A DNA stretch of 64,000 nt, from assembly GCA_035629175.1 (NCBI GenBank), contig DASPIL010000017.1, forward strand, positions 1-64,000, in the 5' to 3' direction. The notes beneath the pieces are model-generated. The model had not been told where the DNA came from. It did not search any database and was given only the letters and a program-made list of their open reading frames with translations. Source of the DNA: Verrucomicrobiia bacterium (lineage in GTDB: Bacteria > Verrucomicrobiota > Verrucomicrobiia > Limisphaerales > DASXHY01). Both the position numbers and the translations under genes were made by a program. This document shows, in pieces, positions 7,144 to 18,095 of the stretch; the first letter of the stretch is position 1, and every line of letters begins with the position of its first letter.

Positions 7144-8682
7144 TCAGCGGATCACTGCCGCGTCTTTTGACACGGCAGGGCCTGTGCGGACCTTTTCGCG
7201 GGCATGGGTGAGATCGCAGTTCTCGAGCACGACGTCGCGCGAGGCGGCACCTTCGAGTTGCAGGAACAAGGGTGAATCCCTGGGCGCAGCAGTCTGTTGT
7301 ATCCGAATGCCCGAGACATTCGTGAGCGAGAAAACCGCGCCGGCCTTTGGGGTGACCTGGACATTCGTGAACACCAATCCCCTGGCGTGATGCGCGACGA
7401 CGCCCTTTGTGGAATGGATGTTCATGTTTTCGAAACGGATGTTTTCAACCGGGGAGTCGTCGAGTCCTGAAATCACGATGGCGGTCGGTACGCCGTCGCC
7501 CGTTACGTTGCTGATGACCATGTTCCTGAACAGCGGGGGCTTTTCATTGGCGGCCTGCTTGCGGTCCGAACTGTAATCCATGTTCATTATCACGACCTCG
7601 CGTTGCATGTTCCGCACCTTGAGATCGCGGGCAAACACGTTCTCCACGATGCCGCCGCGACCGCGGCGCGACTTGATGCGGATGGCGCGGTCGGTGCCAT
7701 CGAACTCGCAGTCGTACATGAAGACGTTCCGCACTCCGCCTGACATTTCGCTGCCGATCACAAGCCCGCCGTGGCCGCGCTTGCTGTAGCAGCGCCGCAT
7801 CACCACGTTTTCCGTGGGGCGATTCACGCGCCAGCCGTCCTCGTTGTAGCCGGATTTCAGAACCACGCAATCGTCACCCGTGCTGAAGGTGCAATCCTCG
7901 ATCAACATGTCCACGCACGAATCGGGATCGACCCCATCGTTGTTCGGCCCATCGGTTTCCACACACACGCGGCGAATCGTCGTGTTCAGGCAGTAGATTG
8001 GATGAATGGTCCAGTTGGGGCCGCTGCCGATCGTGAAGTCCTCAAGCAGGATGTTGGTGCAGTCAACGAAGCTGACGAAACTCGGGCGGATCGCGGCTTC
8101 GGCCGTTCCAAAAACACGCTGTTCCACGGGCACGCCCTGTGCGCCCATGTCAAAAAATTGCTTTGTTTCCCGCGTCTTCCAATCCCACCACACGCGGGCA
8201 TTGCCATTCAGCCGTCCTTTTCCTGTAATCGCGATGTTCGTGCAACCCCGCGCGTAGACGAGCGGCGAATAGTTGTAGAGTTCAATCCCGCCCACGCGCA
8301 CAAACACGACTGGCAGGTAGTCCTCGATGCGGTCGCTGAAAATCACTTCGGCGCCTTCACTCAGATGCAATTCCACATTGCTCCGAAGGTGAATTGGGCC
8401 CGTGAGGAATTTGCCGGCCGGCACAACGACGCGCCCGCCTCCCGCTTCAAAGCAGGCCCGTATGGCAGCAGCAAACGATTTCCCGCAGTTCGTTTTCGCA
8501 CCTGCAATCGCCCCAAAATCCATGATGGAGACCGTGTGCTTCGGAAACGTCGGTGGCACAATGCGTTCGAGAATCCGCGGCAAGCCGGCCCATCCGCCAC
8601 CCGTCGGCGATTGGTTCTGCGCCTGCAGTCGAACCGCGGCGGCCATAAGCGTCAGGAAGACAATCAACAGCGGGCGTGCCAT
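7144..8682 (-). CDS. Glycoside hydrolase family 28 (polygalacturonase-like), exported
   Basis: The start chosen is the ATG directly in front of a clear signal peptide (MARPLLIVFLTLMAAAVRLQA), giving 512 residues; an in-frame ATG 78 bp further upstream adds a non-hydrophobic extension with no support. All four GH28 active-site blocks are visible: the NTD-type block as GPNNDGVDPDSC, the DD block as STGDDCVVLKSG, GHG as KRGHGGLVIGSE and RIK as RAIRIKSRRG. Family members hydrolyse galacturonan or rhamnogalacturonan with inversion. It is the first gene of the pectin-type operon and is divergent from the lipoprotein gene, with a 214-bp intergenic region holding the promoters. Confidence 0.94.
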   Translation of the reverse strand: MARPLLIVFLTLMAAAVRLQAQNQSPTGGGWAGLPRILERIVPPTFPKHTVSIMDFGAIAGAKTNCGKSFAAAIRACFEAGGGRVVVPAGKFLTGPIHLRSNVELHLSEGAEVIFSDRIEDYLPVVFVRVGGIELYNYSPLVYARGCTNIAITGKGRLNGNARVWWDWKTRETKQFFDMGAQGVPVEQRVFGTAEAAIRPSFVSFVDCTNILLEDFTIGSGPNWTIHPIYCLNTTIRRVCVETDGPNNDGVDPDSCVDMLIEDCTFSTGDDCVVLKSGYNEDGWRVNRPTENVVMRRCYSKRGHGGLVIGSEMSGGVRNVFMYDCEFDGTDRAIRIKSRRGRGGIVENVFARDLKVRNMQREVVIMNMDYSSDRKQAANEKPPLFRNMVISNVTGDGVPTAIVISGLDDSPVENIRFENMNIHSTKGVVAHHARGLVFTNVQVTPKAGAVFSLTNVSGIRIQQTAAPRDSPLFLQLEGAASRDVVLENCDLTHAREKVRTGPAVSKDAAVIR

Positions 8683-8896
8683 GGGACGCAGAGTAGACAC
8701 GATCGATGGCTGAGGAAACCGCCACTTCTGCAAAGCACATTGAAAAATCGGCCGCCTCACGCCTTTCCAGCCAATGGCCGCCGGAGTGCCGTGTTCTTTC
8801 GATGGGGGTCAAAACGGCAGTTCGGGCTCAGCCTTGTCAGAAGAAATCCCTGCATCCATGATTCCGGCAAGGAACTTGCATCCCAAGGAACCGAAC

Positions 8897-9379
8897 ATGA
8901 AAATCACGAATTGTATAAAAATTGGATTTGCTGCCTCCGCTTTGCTTGTTTTTGCCGGCTGCGTGAGCAACTCCGAACCCGGGCTGACATCGAACTCATT
9001 TGCCGTTCGGACCGCCACTCTGGGAATCGGTGGGAATAACTGCGGCGGATTTAACGGAACCAGCGGCTCCACCGCGTGTGTCGGGCCTTACACAGGATTC
9101 GCAATCATCACGAACTCGGCTTCCGGGACGATCTGGTTCACGGCGCCCGCGGGAGCTACCAACTGCGTTGTCACGGATTCCTCCGGTTTTGCGTCCCCCT
9201 ACGTTTCCGTCGTGAAAGCCGTCCGCCGCAGCAATCTCATGTCGTGGTGTGGAACCAACTCCGTGAGTTTCCCGGCCAATGCAGGGCAGCAATACAAGTT
9301 CACGATTTTTCTCAAGAGCACGCCGCCGCCTCCGACGAACGGGCAGCCGCTGGTTCTCGAAGTAGACTGGAATCCTTGA
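8897..9379 (+). CDS. Small exported lipoprotein of unknown function
   Basis: 160 residues from the ATG preceded by an AAGGA ribosome-binding site about 7 bp upstream; upstream in-frame ATGs lack this. The N-terminus is a lipoprotein signal (SALLVFAGC) with the acylated Cys at position 22. The mature part is short, rich in Ser, Thr, Gly and Asn, with several Cys (NNCGG, STACVG, TNCVV, SWCG) that could pair in the periplasm, and it ends in a Pro-rich stretch followed by VLEVDWNP. No family was recognised. It converges on the large FecR-TPR-barrel gene with only 6 bp between stops. Confidence 0.8.
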   Translation: MKITNCIKIGFAASALLVFAGCVSNSEPGLTSNSFAVRTATLGIGGNNCGGFNGTSGSTACVGPYTGFAIITNSASGTIWFTAPAGATNCVVTDSSGFASPYVSVVKAVRRSNLMSWCGTNSVSFPANAGQQYKFTIFLKSTPPPPTNGQPLVLEVDWNP

Positions 9380-9385
9380 AACCTC

Positions 9386-12300
9386 CTAGAAGCTGAATTG
9401 CAGCCGCGCGATGAATGTTCGCTCCCGGGGTAGATTGCCGGTAACCGTGAGCGAGTGCAGATGGTAGTTTTCGTCGGAGAGGTTGAGAACTCCCGCTGCA
9501 ATGCTGGCACGGCGCTGCCAGAAGCGATACCCCCCAAGCACGTTGTAATGCCAGAAGTCGTCGCCAGGCTGGCTGGAGAGATCCGCCGAGTTTTGCTGGC
9601 GAAACCAGACTGCTTCAAAGCTGGAGAAAAGTCCTGACGCGTGGTTGAAGTTCGCGTGAAGGACCAGCTGATGCATCAGGCTTTCCGCGTCTTCGTGAGG
9701 AACAAAACCGCCGCTGAACTCGCCAGGCAGCAGGTGCCGCGTGTCAGGGCGCGTGGCCGTCAGATCAGACTGCGTTAGCCGGTACACAAGCCCTGCCGAC
9801 CATTCGGTTCCGATCAGTTGATTGGCAGTAAACACCACTGCGCGTTCCCGAAAATCGATATTTTCACGCAGGCCGTATCCGTTCACCAGAACAAGCACAT
9901 CGTCTTCTAAACCAAAGGGGTCCACGTAGATGCTGCCACGCCAGCGATCGACCTCGGAATAGAGTAATTCGCCCCGAAGGCCAAGGTAGGTTCCAGTTTT
10001 GAATTTCTGTTCGAGCGACAGTGCAAACGTGTCGTTCTCTCCTCCGGAAGTCCCGCCGCTTAGGGATTCAGGAATCAGGCTCCGAAACGCCTGGTTCAGC
10101 CCCGCGACTTGGGTGGGTTCGATGCGATGACTCTGATCCAGGCTCCCGCCGGTGAGCGAGCGAGTATAGGCGCCGCGCACGGTCGTTCCCGGCAGAGGCG
10201 TCCAAAGGAACCCGGCCTTTGGCGAGAGCTGATCCTCGGAATCTTCGCTTCCCCAGAAGGGCGGTGTAAAAAGAAAGCGTGGATACTTGATCCAGTCATA
10301 CGTGAGACCCGCGGTCAGCTGAAGCGGCTCCGCAACCTGCCACGAATGATAGCCGTAAAGGCTGTAGCGATGGAATTCCGCACGCACATCCTGGTCGGCG
10401 AGTATCGCGCCGGGGGAAAAAACTGTACCCTCAATATCGAAGGCAAGTTGCTCGAGGCGAAAATCGGTGTGTTGAAACAGAGCGCCGAGCACCGTCTGAT
10501 GATCGCCCATTTGGAAAATTTGCTGAACCTCAGCGCTGTACAGTTCCTGGCTGTTAGCTGCCGTTCCCCCGGCCGGCAATGCATGGACGCCGGTGATGCC
10601 ACCGTCGACTACAGCAGTGACCAGTTGGGAACGATCCGGGAAGGCCACCGAATAATGGTCCACTTCACGTGTCAGGATCACCAATGTATGGTTCCCCGGA
10701 CTCCACTCATGGTGATACCCAAGTTCCAGCGTTGGCTGGTGTGTTTCCCGTGAACGGCCCCGAACCCGCACATCGGGATCGTACGCCTCTGCGAGGTCGC
10801 CCGCATCGGTTTCCGAAATTCTGACATGGAACAGTAGATCGTCCTGCGCGGTAATCCGTTGCTTCAAAGAGAGGCCAAGGGCACGGGTCTCCTGGTCGTT
10901 GTTGTAACGCTGTCCCGGATCGATTTGGTAGTCTCCTTCCAGGCTGTAGTTGAAGGTGTCAAACGTCCCGTACTGCGCAAAGCTTTGCATCCACGCCCCG
11001 CGGCTCAGGTATTCCGTGCTCGAAACCAGGCCGATGCCCGTGCGATTGAACAGGCGCGAGTATTCACTTTGCGACACGGCAGGCGAGAGAGGCCCGGCGT
11101 CCACCGGGGCAAGAAGAGATGCCAGCCTGTATTCGGCAGATGCCGGCGTCTCAAAGCGGAGATCCCAGTGGTTGGGATCTCTCATCGATTCAAAGCTGTT
11201 GGCGAGGAAGAAATGCGCGGAATAGTTGGCGTAATCGTAGGCAACGGCGCGGTACGCTTCCCGCATTGCGACTTCCCCCATGCCCGCGTCTTCATAAATC
11301 CGGGCCAGGTTCGCACTGCGGACTGCGTGATCCTGCCGCAATAACAACTCCGAGCGAACGATGCTGCGGTTGTCGTTACGTTCCTGTGAACGTTCCAGTT
11401 CCCGAATCGCTTCGTTGATGCGGTTGTTGCGATGATGCACCAGCGCGGAATACAGATGCGGCGTGGGGTCGTTAGGATCCAATCCCGCGGCGAGTTGAAG
11501 CTCTCGTTCTGCGTGCGGAAAATCACCGATGGCTTCGTGAGCCTTGCCGAGATAGCTGCGCAATTCCGCGCGCTGCGGCTCCAGCGCCGCCGCGACCATC
11601 AGGTCTTCGCGGCCGCCAGTGACATCGCCGCGGCGAATCCGGGAAAGGCCGCGCCCGAGCCATGCATTGGCGAGCGCTGAATCAACAGCAATCGCGCGAT
11701 CAAACGACGTCAATGCCTCATCAAAGCGGTTGTCGGCGGCCTCGAGGAACCCCTGGAGCGCGAGGGCCTGGGCGTTTCGCGGCGAAAGTTCAAGGCCTTT
11801 TGTCAGCGCTTCGCGAGCCTCTGCCAGGCGTCCAAAGCTGAACTCCAGTTCGGCGAGCCGGGTCCAGGCAAATCCCAGACCGGGCGACACTACAGCGGCC
11901 TGGCGCGCCAGCCTGCGGGCGCGCTCGAGGGACTCGCCGCGAAGGCCGCCCGATTGCGCGTGATAACTCGAGGCCAGAAGCTCCGAGGCGGTTTCAGGAT
12001 TGGAAATTCCAGAATACGAATCCCGCCGAACGGAGTTGATCAACAGCCGCAGGGCAGCAGCGGATCGTTGTTCCGGAACTGCATCGGGCGCCACCGCGGC
12101 CAGCAGCGATTGCGCCTGCTCCACTTGTCCAACGGACAGCAGCAACGCCGCATGAAAAACCCGCCCGGCATTTGAGGCAGGCGCTCCATTGGTTGGATGC
12201 CGCGCGAGCGCATTGAGCAGGTCGCCTTGTTGATACGCCGCAAGCGAATCGGCAAGGGCTGCGCGTTCTGCATCCGCAAACGCCAGTTCAGCAGGATCAA

Positions 12301-12916
12301 TGACGGCCGGATAATAAAAGGCCCACTGAAGCACGTGGTTCACGATGAAGCCGGCCGTTGGAGCAGGCGCGCGTCCTGGTTCAGCAACCGCCTGCTGCCC
12401 GTTGGTCAGGATCAGCGTCGCTTGTTCATTTCCAAACGTCACTGTTCCATCGATCACAGAAAGCGTCGTGCGGCCCAGACCATTCACCGCCATCACAAAC
12501 TCAGTCCCTTCGATGCCCGCGCTGGCGCCCCGGGTGACAACGCGAATACGTCCCGGTTTGTCGCGGTGAAAGAAGGAAAGCACACCGCGGAAAAGTTCGA
12601 GGCCGGACTGCCCATCGCGCACCGGTAGGATTTCGAGCTCGGTGGACGCTCCGAATGGAATGACGCTTTCTCCACTCCAGCGCAGCGCCACCCTGCTGTT
12701 GGCGCTCGTCCTCAAGCGGTCGCCCGCCGAGAGAAGCTGGTTTGTCGCGCCCGGTGTCCACGTCGAAGTCCCCGCAGGCAGGACCTGCACGGTGCCCTGT
12801 AATTCTACAATCCGGATCTGCTCCGCTTGGGAACTTTGTCCCCATCCGCACAAGGTGCTGGCTTCAAAGAGCAATACAACGGCGACAATGCAGGTGATCT
12901 GGTGTGACAGTTTCAC
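9386..12916 (-). CDS. FecR-TPR-outer-membrane beta-barrel fusion protein
   Basis: 1176 residues in one uninterrupted frame. A signal peptide occupies about 1-27. A FecR-type domain follows at about 35-190 (LQGTVQVLPAG, LSAGDRLRTSANSRVALRW, GIEGTEFVMAV). Tetratricopeptide repeats run from about 225 to 600 (e.g. AWTRLAELEFSFGRLAEA, LALQGFLEAADNRFDEAL, PHLYSALVHHRNNRINEA). A beta-barrel like the C-terminal part of TonB-dependent receptors covers about 615-1176 (LSPKAGFLWTPLPGTTVRG) and ends in FSF, the usual outer-membrane insertion signal. No plug domain or TonB box is evident. TPR-plus-barrel order recalls polysaccharide exporters such as BcsC and PgaA. Function is unknown; the architecture is directly visible. 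Confidence 0.85.
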   Translation of the reverse strand: MKLSHQITCIVAVVLLFEASTLCGWGQSSQAEQIRIVELQGTVQVLPAGTSTWTPGATNQLLSAGDRLRTSANSRVALRWSGESVIPFGASTELEILPVRDGQSGLELFRGVLSFFHRDKPGRIRVVTRGASAGIEGTEFVMAVNGLGRTTLSVIDGTVTFGNEQATLILTNGQQAVAEPGRAPAPTAGFIVNHVLQWAFYYPAVIDPAELAFADAERAALADSLAAYQQGDLLNALARHPTNGAPASNAGRVFHAALLLSVGQVEQAQSLLAAVAPDAVPEQRSAAALRLLINSVRRDSYSGISNPETASELLASSYHAQSGGLRGESLERARRLARQAAVVSPGLGFAWTRLAELEFSFGRLAEAREALTKGLELSPRNAQALALQGFLEAADNRFDEALTSFDRAIAVDSALANAWLGRGLSRIRRGDVTGGREDLMVAAALEPQRAELRSYLGKAHEAIGDFPHAERELQLAAGLDPNDPTPHLYSALVHHRNNRINEAIRELERSQERNDNRSIVRSELLLRQDHAVRSANLARIYEDAGMGEVAMREAYRAVAYDYANYSAHFFLANSFESMRDPNHWDLRFETPASAEYRLASLLAPVDAGPLSPAVSQSEYSRLFNRTGIGLVSSTEYLSRGAWMQSFAQYGTFDTFNYSLEGDYQIDPGQRYNNDQETRALGLSLKQRITAQDDLLFHVRISETDAGDLAEAYDPDVRVRGRSRETHQPTLELGYHHEWSPGNHTLVILTREVDHYSVAFPDRSQLVTAVVDGGITGVHALPAGGTAANSQELYSAEVQQIFQMGDHQTVLGALFQHTDFRLEQLAFDIEGTVFSPGAILADQDVRAEFHRYSLYGYHSWQVAEPLQLTAGLTYDWIKYPRFLFTPPFWGSEDSEDQLSPKAGFLWTPLPGTTVRGAYTRSLTGGSLDQSHRIEPTQVAGLNQAFRSLIPESLSGGTSGGENDTFALSLEQKFKTGTYLGLRGELLYSEVDRWRGSIYVDPFGLEDDVLVLVNGYGLRENIDFRERAVVFTANQLIGTEWSAGLVYRLTQSDLTATRPDTRHLLPGEFSGGFVPHEDAESLMHQLVLHANFNHASGLFSSFEAVWFRQQNSADLSSQPGDDFWHYNVLGGYRFWQRRASIAAGVLNLSDENYHLHSLTVTGNLPRERTFIARLQFSF

Positions 12917-12946: not shown

Positions 12947-12960
12947 GCCAGCCTGCTGGC
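12947..12960. promoter_or_regulatory. Short palindrome upstream of the FecR-TPR-barrel gene
   Basis: GCCAGC-CT-GCTGGC, a perfect 6-bp inverted repeat with a 2-bp centre, located 30 bp before the start codon of the FecR-TPR-barrel gene. It could be an operator or a leader hairpin. No partner regulator is known. Confidence 0.35.
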
Positions 12961-13007
12961 CCATCCTCCTCGTCCGAGGCGGCGATACGAAATCACAAAC
13001 GGAACCG

Positions 13008-15744: not shown

Positions 15745-17451
15745 ATGCCATCGAATCACTCTAAAGCCATCTTTGACGGGTTCGTGCCGCAGATTGGGGT
15801 CACGCCGCTTGCCGAACTGCTCTCCAACCTGCTCGGGGAGATAGCCGCATTGATGGAGGTGGAACGCGTCGGGTATTCGCGGATGGAACGCGATGGGTCG
15901 TCGATTCAGCAGGAGTTTCAATATTACCTTTCCCGCCGGCATTGTGACGCAGGTTCCCTGCTGCGGCTGTACGCCCGGGATTATCCCGGGTATTTCGCGG
16001 CATTGAACGCGCGTTCGAATGTCATCGTTTCGCACGATGTGATGTCGGACCCGCGGCTTGCAGAATTCCAGCAAACCTATTTCAAGCCACTGGGAATCAC
16101 GTCCATGCTCGACGTCCCGGTTCACCGCGCCGGCCAGTTATACGGCGTCATCTGTCACGAGCATGTGGGTCCCCCGCGTCATTGGACCGACATGGAAGTG
16201 GAAGCGGCGCGCAGCTTTGCGCATCTCGTGGCGCTCGCCATTGAGACCGACCAGCGGCAGAAGATGGAAGCCGCCGTGCGGGATCGCGAGGCGCGGTATC
16301 GCGCCGCCATTGAACACACCCCCGCCGCGATCGTGGTGCTGAACGCAGCAACGGGAAAGTTTGTTGAAACCAATGACAACGCCGTCCGGCTGTTTGGCCT
16401 TTCGCGCGAGGAATTGCTGGACACAGGGCCCGCCGAACTCAGCCCGCCGAGGCAGGCCGATGGACGCCCAAGCAAGGATGTCGCACGCGAGAACATCGGG
16501 GCCGCAGTTAATGGCGAGACGCGGATTTTCGAATGGTTGCACCGTGACAGGTCGGGCAGGGACATCCCGTGCGAAATTCGCATCGCCCGGATGCCAGCCG
16601 AGGACGAGACCCTCGTGATCGCCGCGATCATGGACATCACCGAGCGCAAACGCGCCGAAGCCGAATTGCGAATGGCGCTGGAACAGGAACGCGAACTCAG
16701 CGAGCTGAAGACAAACTTTGTTAACGTGGTTTCACACGAGTTTCGGACTCCGCTCGGGGTCATTGTTTCGTCGGCTGAAATCCTTGAGCATTACTTTGAG
16801 CGGCTGCCGGGCGAGCAGCGCGCCGGCCATTTGCAGGACATCGGATTCGCAGCGCAGCAGATGGCGGGTTTGATGGATGAGGTGCTTCTGCTCGGCAGGG
16901 TCGATTCCGGACGCATGCAGTGCAATCCCGAACCGCTCGACATGGCGGGCTTTTGCCGACGGCTCGTCGACGAGCAGCTCTCTGCGACGCATCGCAAATG
17001 TCCCATCCAATTGACCGTTGAAGGATGCGCGAGTCAGGCGTCTGCTGATGAAGCCCTCCTGCGCCATGTCTTCAACAATCTACTGTCCAATGCGGTGAAA
17101 TATTCGGCCGCTGGCAGTGTTGTGACGTTTGTGGTCAGGCGCGAGGAGCGGGACGCGGTGTTCGAAATTCAGGATCACGGGATCGGAATTCCCGCATCTG
17201 ATCAGAAACGCCTGTTCGAGGCGTTTCATCGCGGGCAGAACGTTGGCGACATCGCGGGGACGGGCCTGGGCCTGGTGATTGCGAAAAGCTGTGTCGACCT
17301 GCACAGCGGCACGATTGCGATCTCCAGCGAACCCGGCAAAGGCACGCGCGTCACGGTTCGCCTGCCGCTCTTTCGCACGCGCCGCAGTGACACTCGCAAT
17401 GGCGCGACAAAGACGAAACGACAGGCTGCCGCTTCCATGGATGCCATATGA
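15745..17451 (+). CDS. GAF-PAS hybrid sensor histidine kinase
   Basis: 568 residues, no membrane segment, so a cytoplasmic sensor. A GAF domain covers about 20-170 (GITSMLDVPVHRAGQLYGVICHEH) and a PAS domain about 180-300 (RYRAAIEHTPAAIVVLN; ITERKRAEAELR). The HisKA H-box VVSHEFRTPLG places the phosphorylated His at about 331. The ATPase part has an N-box (FNNLLSNAVKYS, near 443), G1 (DHGIGIPASD) and G2 (GTGLGLVIAKS). The stop overlaps the response regulator start by ATGA, so the two form a coupled two-component pair. The signal is unknown. Confidence 0.95.
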   Translation: MPSNHSKAIFDGFVPQIGVTPLAELLSNLLGEIAALMEVERVGYSRMERDGSSIQQEFQYYLSRRHCDAGSLLRLYARDYPGYFAALNARSNVIVSHDVMSDPRLAEFQQTYFKPLGITSMLDVPVHRAGQLYGVICHEHVGPPRHWTDMEVEAARSFAHLVALAIETDQRQKMEAAVRDREARYRAAIEHTPAAIVVLNAATGKFVETNDNAVRLFGLSREELLDTGPAELSPPRQADGRPSKDVARENIGAAVNGETRIFEWLHRDRSGRDIPCEIRIARMPAEDETLVIAAIMDITERKRAEAELRMALEQERELSELKTNFVNVVSHEFRTPLGVIVSSAEILEHYFERLPGEQRAGHLQDIGFAAQQMAGLMDEVLLLGRVDSGRMQCNPEPLDMAGFCRRLVDEQLSATHRKCPIQLTVEGCASQASADEALLRHVFNNLLSNAVKYSAAGSVVTFVVRREERDAVFEIQDHGIGIPASDQKRLFEAFHRGQNVGDIAGTGLGLVIAKSCVDLHSGTIAISSEPGKGTRVTVRLPLFRTRRSDTRNGATKTKRQAAASMDAI

Positions 17452-18095
17452 ACAGGATACTTGTCATCGAAGATCAGCCGCAGATGCGGAAGAATATCGT
17501 GACCATTCTGACCATGGAGAACTTCACGGTGTTGAGCGCGGAAAATGGCCGGCTGGGACTGGAGCTCGCGCGACGCGAGACGCCCGACCTGATCATCTGC
17601 GACGTCATGATGCCCGACCTGGACGGCTACGGAGTTCTCAAGGCATTGCGGGAGGAATCGGCGACCGCTGACATCCCCTTCATTTTTCTGACGGCGAAGA
17701 GCGAAAAGCTGGATATACGTGCCGGGATGAATTTCGGAGCGGACGATTACCTCACCAAGCCCGTAACACGCGATGATTTGCTCGCGGCGATCGCTGCGAG
17801 GCTCGAGCGGAGGCGATCGGTGGACGCGGCGCACAGCGGTCGCGGGTTCCAGCCCGATTTTTCCTCACCTGCACCGTTGAAGCGCCTCGGTTTGACCGAA
17901 CGGGAATCAGAAGTGTTGTTATGGGTATCGCAGGGAAAGAGCAACGCTGAGATTGGAATCATTCTTGGCATGGCCGAGAAGACGGTAAAGAAGCACATGG
18001 GCAACATCTTCGAGAAGCTTGGCCTGGAAGGGCGCAACGCGGCGACCGTGCGCGCTCTGGAGGTGCTCAATTCACCTGCCCGCGTTCGGAACTAG
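17448..18095 (+). CDS. Response regulator, REC plus LuxR-type HTH
   Basis: 215 residues. The receiver domain (1-120) has the acidic pair in VIEDQ, phosphoacceptor Asp52 in IICDVMMPDLDGYG, and Lys in LTKPVTRDD. The C-terminal LuxR/NarL-type helix-turn-helix at about 145-205 reads LTERESEVLLWVSQGKSNAEI then AEKTVKKHMGNIFEKLG. It is translationally coupled to the kinase directly upstream, its evident partner. Its 3' end overlaps the convergent SLC13-family gene by 24 bp, which leaves no room for a separate terminator. Confidence 0.95.
   Translation: MNRILVIEDQPQMRKNIVTILTMENFTVLSAENGRLGLELARRETPDLIICDVMMPDLDGYGVLKALREESATADIPFIFLTAKSEKLDIRAGMNFGADDYLTKPVTRDDLLAAIAARLERRRSVDAAHSGRGFQPDFSSPAPLKRLGLTERESEVLLWVSQGKSNAEIGIILGMAEKTVKKHMGNIFEKLGLEGRNAATVRALEVLNSPARVRN

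Follow-up and report, generated by a model that had tools for sequence, protein, structure and literature searches.

The 64,000-nucleotide stretch of contig DASPIL010000017.1 analysed here (hereafter the window, contig C17 of a 5.4 Mb assembly in 108 contigs) comes from an uncultured member of the Verrucomicrobiota and carries at 9386-12916 on the minus strand a gene for a multidomain protein. The frame is uninterrupted, starts with GTG and encodes 1176 amino acids. A first-pass annotation, made from the letters alone, had described the product as a single chain joining one signal peptide, a FecR domain, about ten TPR units and an outer-membrane barrel ending in FSF, and Pfam and AlphaFold2 agree on this composition. 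The immediate neighbours are a GH28 gene, a small lipoprotein gene and a major facilitator superfamily (MFS) transporter gene, and there is neither a sigma factor nor a TonB gene among them, as had been noted before. The parts of the gene are as follows:

9386..12916, minus strand: whole gene, FecR-TPR protein with a plugless barrel of predicted TonB-receptor type (frame, Pfam, AlphaFold, collinear homologues)
12824..12916, minus strand: signal peptide, residues 1-31, boundary approximate (sequence and AlphaFold helix 2-22)
12356..12823, minus strand: FecR domain, residues 32-187, with the Pfam FecR match 66-159 at 12440-12721 (Pfam and AlphaFold)
11111..12346, minus strand: TPR superhelix, residues 191-602 (Pfam and AlphaFold)
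11039..11110, minus strand: conserved 24-residue linker 603-626 at the TPR-barrel junction, the position expected for a plug (AlphaFold and conservation)
9389..11038, minus strand: predicted 22-strand barrel, residues 627-1176, TonB-dependent receptor fold, plugless (Pfam, AlphaFold, Foldseek)
10040..10153, minus strand: predicted extracellular loop after strand 13, residues 922-959, SLDQSHRIEPTQVAGLNQAFRSLIPES (AlphaFold and conservation)

Pfam matched FecR at residues 66-159 (E 1.2e-8), several TPR families at about 330-520 and the TonB-receptor barrel PF00593 at 722-928 (E 4.2e-13), and no match to the plug PF07715 or to BCSC_C was obtained anywhere in the protein. The full-length AlphaFold2 model, built from 64 sequences (predicted local distance difference test, pLDDT, 87.6; predicted template modelling score, pTM, 0.86), consists of a signal helix, a beta-rich FecR domain at 34-187, about 23 helices forming roughly 10-11 TPR-like pairs at 191-602, and 22 strands at 627-1175; modelled separately, the barrel again has 22 strands (pLDDT 88.6). 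The turns after even strands comprise 2-5 residues and most of the odd-strand loops are longer, which is the pattern of TonB receptors with a periplasmic N-terminus. In Foldseek searches against the PDB the top matches of both models are all TonB-dependent receptors (OprC, PqqU, FhuE, FoxA and FecA), with a template modelling (TM) score of about 0.6 for the barrel alone to OprC, PqqU, FhuE and FecA. By sequence and predicted fold the barrel is therefore of the 22-strand TonB-receptor type and not of the BcsC/PgaA type, and the protein is presumably located in the outer membrane.

The absence of a plug, which had been suspected before, is confirmed by the model as well as by Pfam: the last TPR helix is followed by strand 1 after just 24 residues, so that there is no room for a plug, and an ordinary plugged TonB receptor is ruled out. 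The genome itself encodes nine plug domains, all of them elsewhere. The lumen might instead be closed by the conserved loop 922-959, a candidate gate or ligand site, or by the linker 603-626. An anti-sigma role of the FecR domain does not fit a chain with a signal peptide and a barrel and no adjacent extracytoplasmic function (ECF) sigma factor gene.

The architecture is not unique, as hundreds of homologues exist. Within the order (Limisphaerales/Pedosphaera group) 51 of 116 genomes contain the receptor at E <= 1e-60, nearly always collinear over the full length, and the occurrence of such collinear homologues in many genomes rules out a frameshift or misassembly joining two genes. Of 39 close relatives, 25 have a homologue at a looser threshold, including a few in which the match is confined to the TPR part. 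Outside the order the receptor was present in one other genome among 241 sampled across the phylum, and the family thus occurs almost only in its own order in this phylum-wide sampling. A scan of GTDB genomes yielded 361 stretches encoding a receptor homologue; the titles of the best 80 name Verrucomicrobia, Limisphaerales or Pedosphaera in nearly every case, and some record titles of the scan, for example Akkermansia muciniphila, probably stand for misnamed bins. FecR is matched in 31/31 aligned homologues and PF00593 in 29/31. Mean column conservation is highest in the TPR core 346-602 (0.74), followed by FecR (0.55) and the barrel (0.53), and the loops 922-959 and 1145-1166, both predicted to face outwards, reach 0.70-0.74 compared with 0.12-0.25 in several other outer loops. 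Three homologues, L066 (G014:C326), G289:C1 and G019:C507, are split into two frames or contain a stop and are probably pseudogenes or assembly errors.

The main clue to the function comes from the genes next to these homologues, which the first-pass annotation had recommended to survey. We assigned CHASE2 neighbours by profile and Pfam and not by clustering of neighbours on shared domains, a procedure that lumps two-component proteins with CHASE2 enzymes and had produced two artefactual partners, the kinase/regulator pair at 15745-18095 of the window and the response regulator L038:6891-7256. The window pair (plus strand) encodes a histidine kinase with GAF and PAS domains and then a response regulator whose C-terminus is LuxR-like, and it is unrelated to the receptor. 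A partner was counted as direct when it started less than 400 bp downstream on the same strand, and as missing downstream only where at least 2.5 kb of room was present. Among the 89 informative loci a CHASE2 protein lies directly downstream of the receptor in 42 and within 4 kb downstream in a further 22 (64/89 in all); the remaining 25 have none downstream, six of them with a CHASE2 protein upstream. CHASE2 transducers are thus the recurrent neighbours, which supports the surface-sensing alternative that had been raised, and no transport or glycan synthase genes are conserved beside the homologues in this survey.

Pfam analysis of 53 partners, 52 nearby proteins plus the kinase on contig C69 described below, detected CHASE2 in all 53, combined with Guanylate_cyc in 28, with Pkinase in 21 and with the HisKA/HATPase/receiver set of a hybrid histidine kinase in four. 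The periplasmic sensor is thus kept throughout, whereas the cytoplasmic output is swapped from partner to partner. Output type requires only four changes along the receptor tree, compared with a mean of 20.1 after shuffling. Distances between receptors and between CHASE2 proteins are correlated (Mantel r 0.76, best of 5000 shuffles 0.19), with a contribution of species relatedness, and CHASE2 was found in 51/51 receptor-bearing genomes of the order versus 39/65 others (Fisher p 2.6e-8, uncorrected for relatedness). At the locus L039 (G022:C13) a receptor of the cyclase-paired clade has as its partner a kinase that groups with the likely partner of the window receptor, probably by a partner swap. 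Upstream of receptor genes there are also CHASE2 proteins whose N-terminal part is a cyclase domain (L060:9018-11795, L128:2944-5778 and L052:11262-13127), and two of these three add a C-terminal Ser/Thr kinase, which gives two outputs on one sensor.

At the window locus itself the order is receptor, lipoprotein and then the GH28 gene where the kinase would be expected; in the closest relatives (L069-L081, 48-54% identity) the receptor and a CHASE2 kinase are separated by mostly 550-900 bp. The GH28 gene (7144-8760, minus strand) is of the pectinase type and takes the position of the kinase gene of close relatives. The genome contains exactly three FecR matches, on C91, C17 (the window) and C36, and exactly three CHASE2 matches, on C91, C36 and C69. 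On C91 a paralogue of the window receptor (46% identical) has a CHASE2-Ser/Thr kinase downstream of it. On C36 (L153:8417-11828) the gene of a soluble FecR protein of 327 aa precedes that of a CHASE2 protein resembling adenylate cyclase; here the module occurs a second time in the genome, without a barrel. With these two pairs adjacent, the window receptor and the C69 kinase are left over. This 670-aa CHASE2-Ser/Thr kinase (L152:8030-10042) is flanked by unrelated genes, matches CHASE2 and then Pkinase (E 3e-31 and 4e-24) and contains the catalytic residues K420, HRD 532-534 and D551, the Asp of the Asp-x-Gly motif. It belongs to a set of 13 with 99% support, the rest of which are the kinases beside the closest relatives of the window receptor plus that of L039, and its contig resembles the window in composition (tetranucleotide correlation 0.969). 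Because it is the sole unpaired CHASE2 protein and groups with the kinases of the closest relatives, the C69 kinase is most likely the relocated partner of the window receptor.

Among characterised systems the closest is that of Sinorhizobium meliloti, where the outer-membrane barrel receptor NsrA, with its barrel at residues 600-1200, is needed for signal perception by the cognate CHASE2 cyclases CyaK and CyaD1/D2, and the ribosomal protein uL2 is a candidate signal of the system (PMC7529298, PMC13001267). A tblastn search of the window protein against plasmids found matches on pSymB replicons. The product there is 1197 aa long, contains FecR and TPR and carries the annotation FecR domain protein or TonB-dependent receptor; its gene overlaps that of a following CHASE2 cyclase by one base. 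We infer with some force, from its length, barrel position and cyclase neighbour, that this protein is NsrA, which we take to be SMb20775, and the S. meliloti receptor would then almost certainly share the layout of the window protein. Aligned by hhalign, the window family and the rhizobial family match over nearly the full length, 1028 columns (probability 100, E 1.4e-40), and the barrels alone over 334 columns (probability 97, E 1.1e-10). Both unite FecR, TPR and a C-terminal stretch, about 600 residues in the pSymB protein, in one chain, and the pSymB receptor gene directly adjoins that of a CHASE2 enzyme. However, the identity to the window protein is only 21-24%, the pSymB barrel is not recognised by PF00593, and the output of NsrA is cyclic AMP, whereas the likely partner of the window receptor is a Ser/Thr kinase encoded elsewhere.

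More distant parallels exist. Clusters of Campylobacterota combine a CHASE2 adenylate cyclase with a FecR outer-membrane protein, a TPR protein and a phosphodiesterase (PMC9239204); compared by description, they likewise tie FecR and TPR to a CHASE2 cyclase, but as separate genes and together with the phosphodiesterase. The BiofilmReg operon of Burkholderia also places a gene for a FecR protein next to that of a CHASE2 transducer, in this case a histidine kinase, but the periplasmic FecR protein is linked to LysM, and a TPR part and barrel are not described (PMC5192318). With FecA-FecR-FecI and other TonB-dependent receptors the window protein shares the barrel fold (FecA, 1kmp, is among the Foldseek matches) and the FecR domain, but it is plugless, holds FecR within the barrel chain and has no adjacent sigma factor gene.

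Taken together, we consider it probable that the window protein is an NsrA-type outer-membrane receptor that relays to an inner-membrane CHASE2 enzyme, its partner most likely being the C69 kinase. In this mechanism the plugless barrel would bind or sense something outside the cell, and the FecR-TPR part would reach into the periplasm and signal the barrel's state to the CHASE2 domain there, upon which the inner-membrane enzyme would alter its cytoplasmic activity. In most relatives this enzyme, a cyclase, Ser/Thr kinase or hybrid histidine kinase, would be the one encoded next door; in the genome studied here the C69 kinase would make protein phosphorylation the output. Several points weigh against this interpretation. 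No CHASE2 gene is adjacent at the window locus, and 19 of the 89 informative homologues have none nearby. The C69 kinase was singled out as partner by elimination and phylogeny, and the assembly, in 108 contigs, is incomplete and may lack another CHASE2 or FecR gene. Furthermore, the Mantel and co-occurrence statistics ignore species relatedness, and the pSymB protein is equated with NsrA by the three features named above.

The missing partner gene and the homologues that stand alone would also suit a receptor that is a non-signalling orphan or works with another partner, for example the C36 CHASE2 cyclase. We regard this as unlikely, as the frame is intact, the residues conserved throughout the family are retained, the C36 cyclase already adjoins its own FecR gene and phylogeny points to the C69 kinase. 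It seems even harder to maintain that the protein is a TonB-dependent transporter with a lost or replaced plug that still imports a substrate under regulation by the FecR-TPR part: the family and fold of the barrel, together with three TonB_C genes and the plug domains in the genome, would be compatible with it, but without a plug there is no place for a TonB box of the usual sort, a mere 24 residues precede strand 1, and it is CHASE2 transducers rather than transport genes that are conserved nearby. Finally, the first-pass annotation had raised an exporter of glycans, or a porin, like BcsC or PgaA, in which the TPR part would bind a synthase, the barrel would secrete the polysaccharide and FecR would be accessory. 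The window protein shares with BcsC and PgaA the order of a periplasmic TPR part and a C-terminal barrel, but this reading is so improbable that we reject it on the Pfam and Foldseek evidence, given a 22-strand barrel of predicted TonB-receptor type with PF00593 and without any BCSC_C or PgaA match, the presence of FecR, and CHASE2 transducers in place of glycan genes nearby.

One further feature lies in the adjacent sequence:

8894..9379, plus strand: small lipoprotein gene with the lipobox FAG-C, convergent with the receptor gene (sequence)

The lipoprotein has no Pfam family match. Homologues with 46-53% identity over about 100 aa occur at L073, L075-L078 and L080, and another at L105 (33% identity over 159 aa). 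In several of the closest relatives they sit between the receptor and the CHASE2 kinase, and the lipoprotein is possibly an accessory part of the receptor system. Two palindromes upstream of the receptor gene, CCAGCctGCTGG at 12948-12959 and CCTCGtcCGAGG at 12968-12979, are indeed present as letters, as the first-pass annotation had pointed out, but they carry no evidence because the intergenic RNA folds no better than shuffled sequences (z 0.40), and regulatory hairpins are rejected on this ground. Secreted proteins with Ig domains (L004:12307-14529 and other loci) adjoin or neighbour many receptor genes; as candidate ligands they are weak and the association may be due to chance, since Ig_3 domains, with 59 matches, are frequent in this genome.

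To our knowledge, there are very few systems in which a signal is read at the outer membrane and relayed to kinases or cyclases of the inner membrane (FecA/FecR and NsrA/CyaK). The verrucomicrobial FecR/CHASE2 receptor family was not found described in the literature searched, nor was a receptor for CHASE2 Ser/Thr kinases, for which a candidate is now at hand. What is new compared with the NsrA/CHASE2 kind is the kinase and histidine kinase outputs, the recognisable TonB-receptor barrel and, for the window locus, the probably distant partner. We lean, with some reserve, towards the view that plugless FecR-TPR barrels are direct outer-membrane receptors for eukaryote-like Ser/Thr kinases of the inner membrane and, through swapped cytoplasmic parts, for cyclases and hybrid histidine kinases, and form a general modular two-membrane signalling system in Verrucomicrobiota of which NsrA and its cyclase would be one distant case. 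A prediction from this is that FecR-TPR regulates CHASE2 in general, and this sensor, whose input is known in few cases, would gain a concrete partner. Roughly every second well-assembled genome of this large order carries the receptor family, which provides many natural variants with three kinds of output. The same kind of receptor combined with different partner enzymes in hundreds of related bacteria suggests a widespread plug-and-play mode of sensing the outside.

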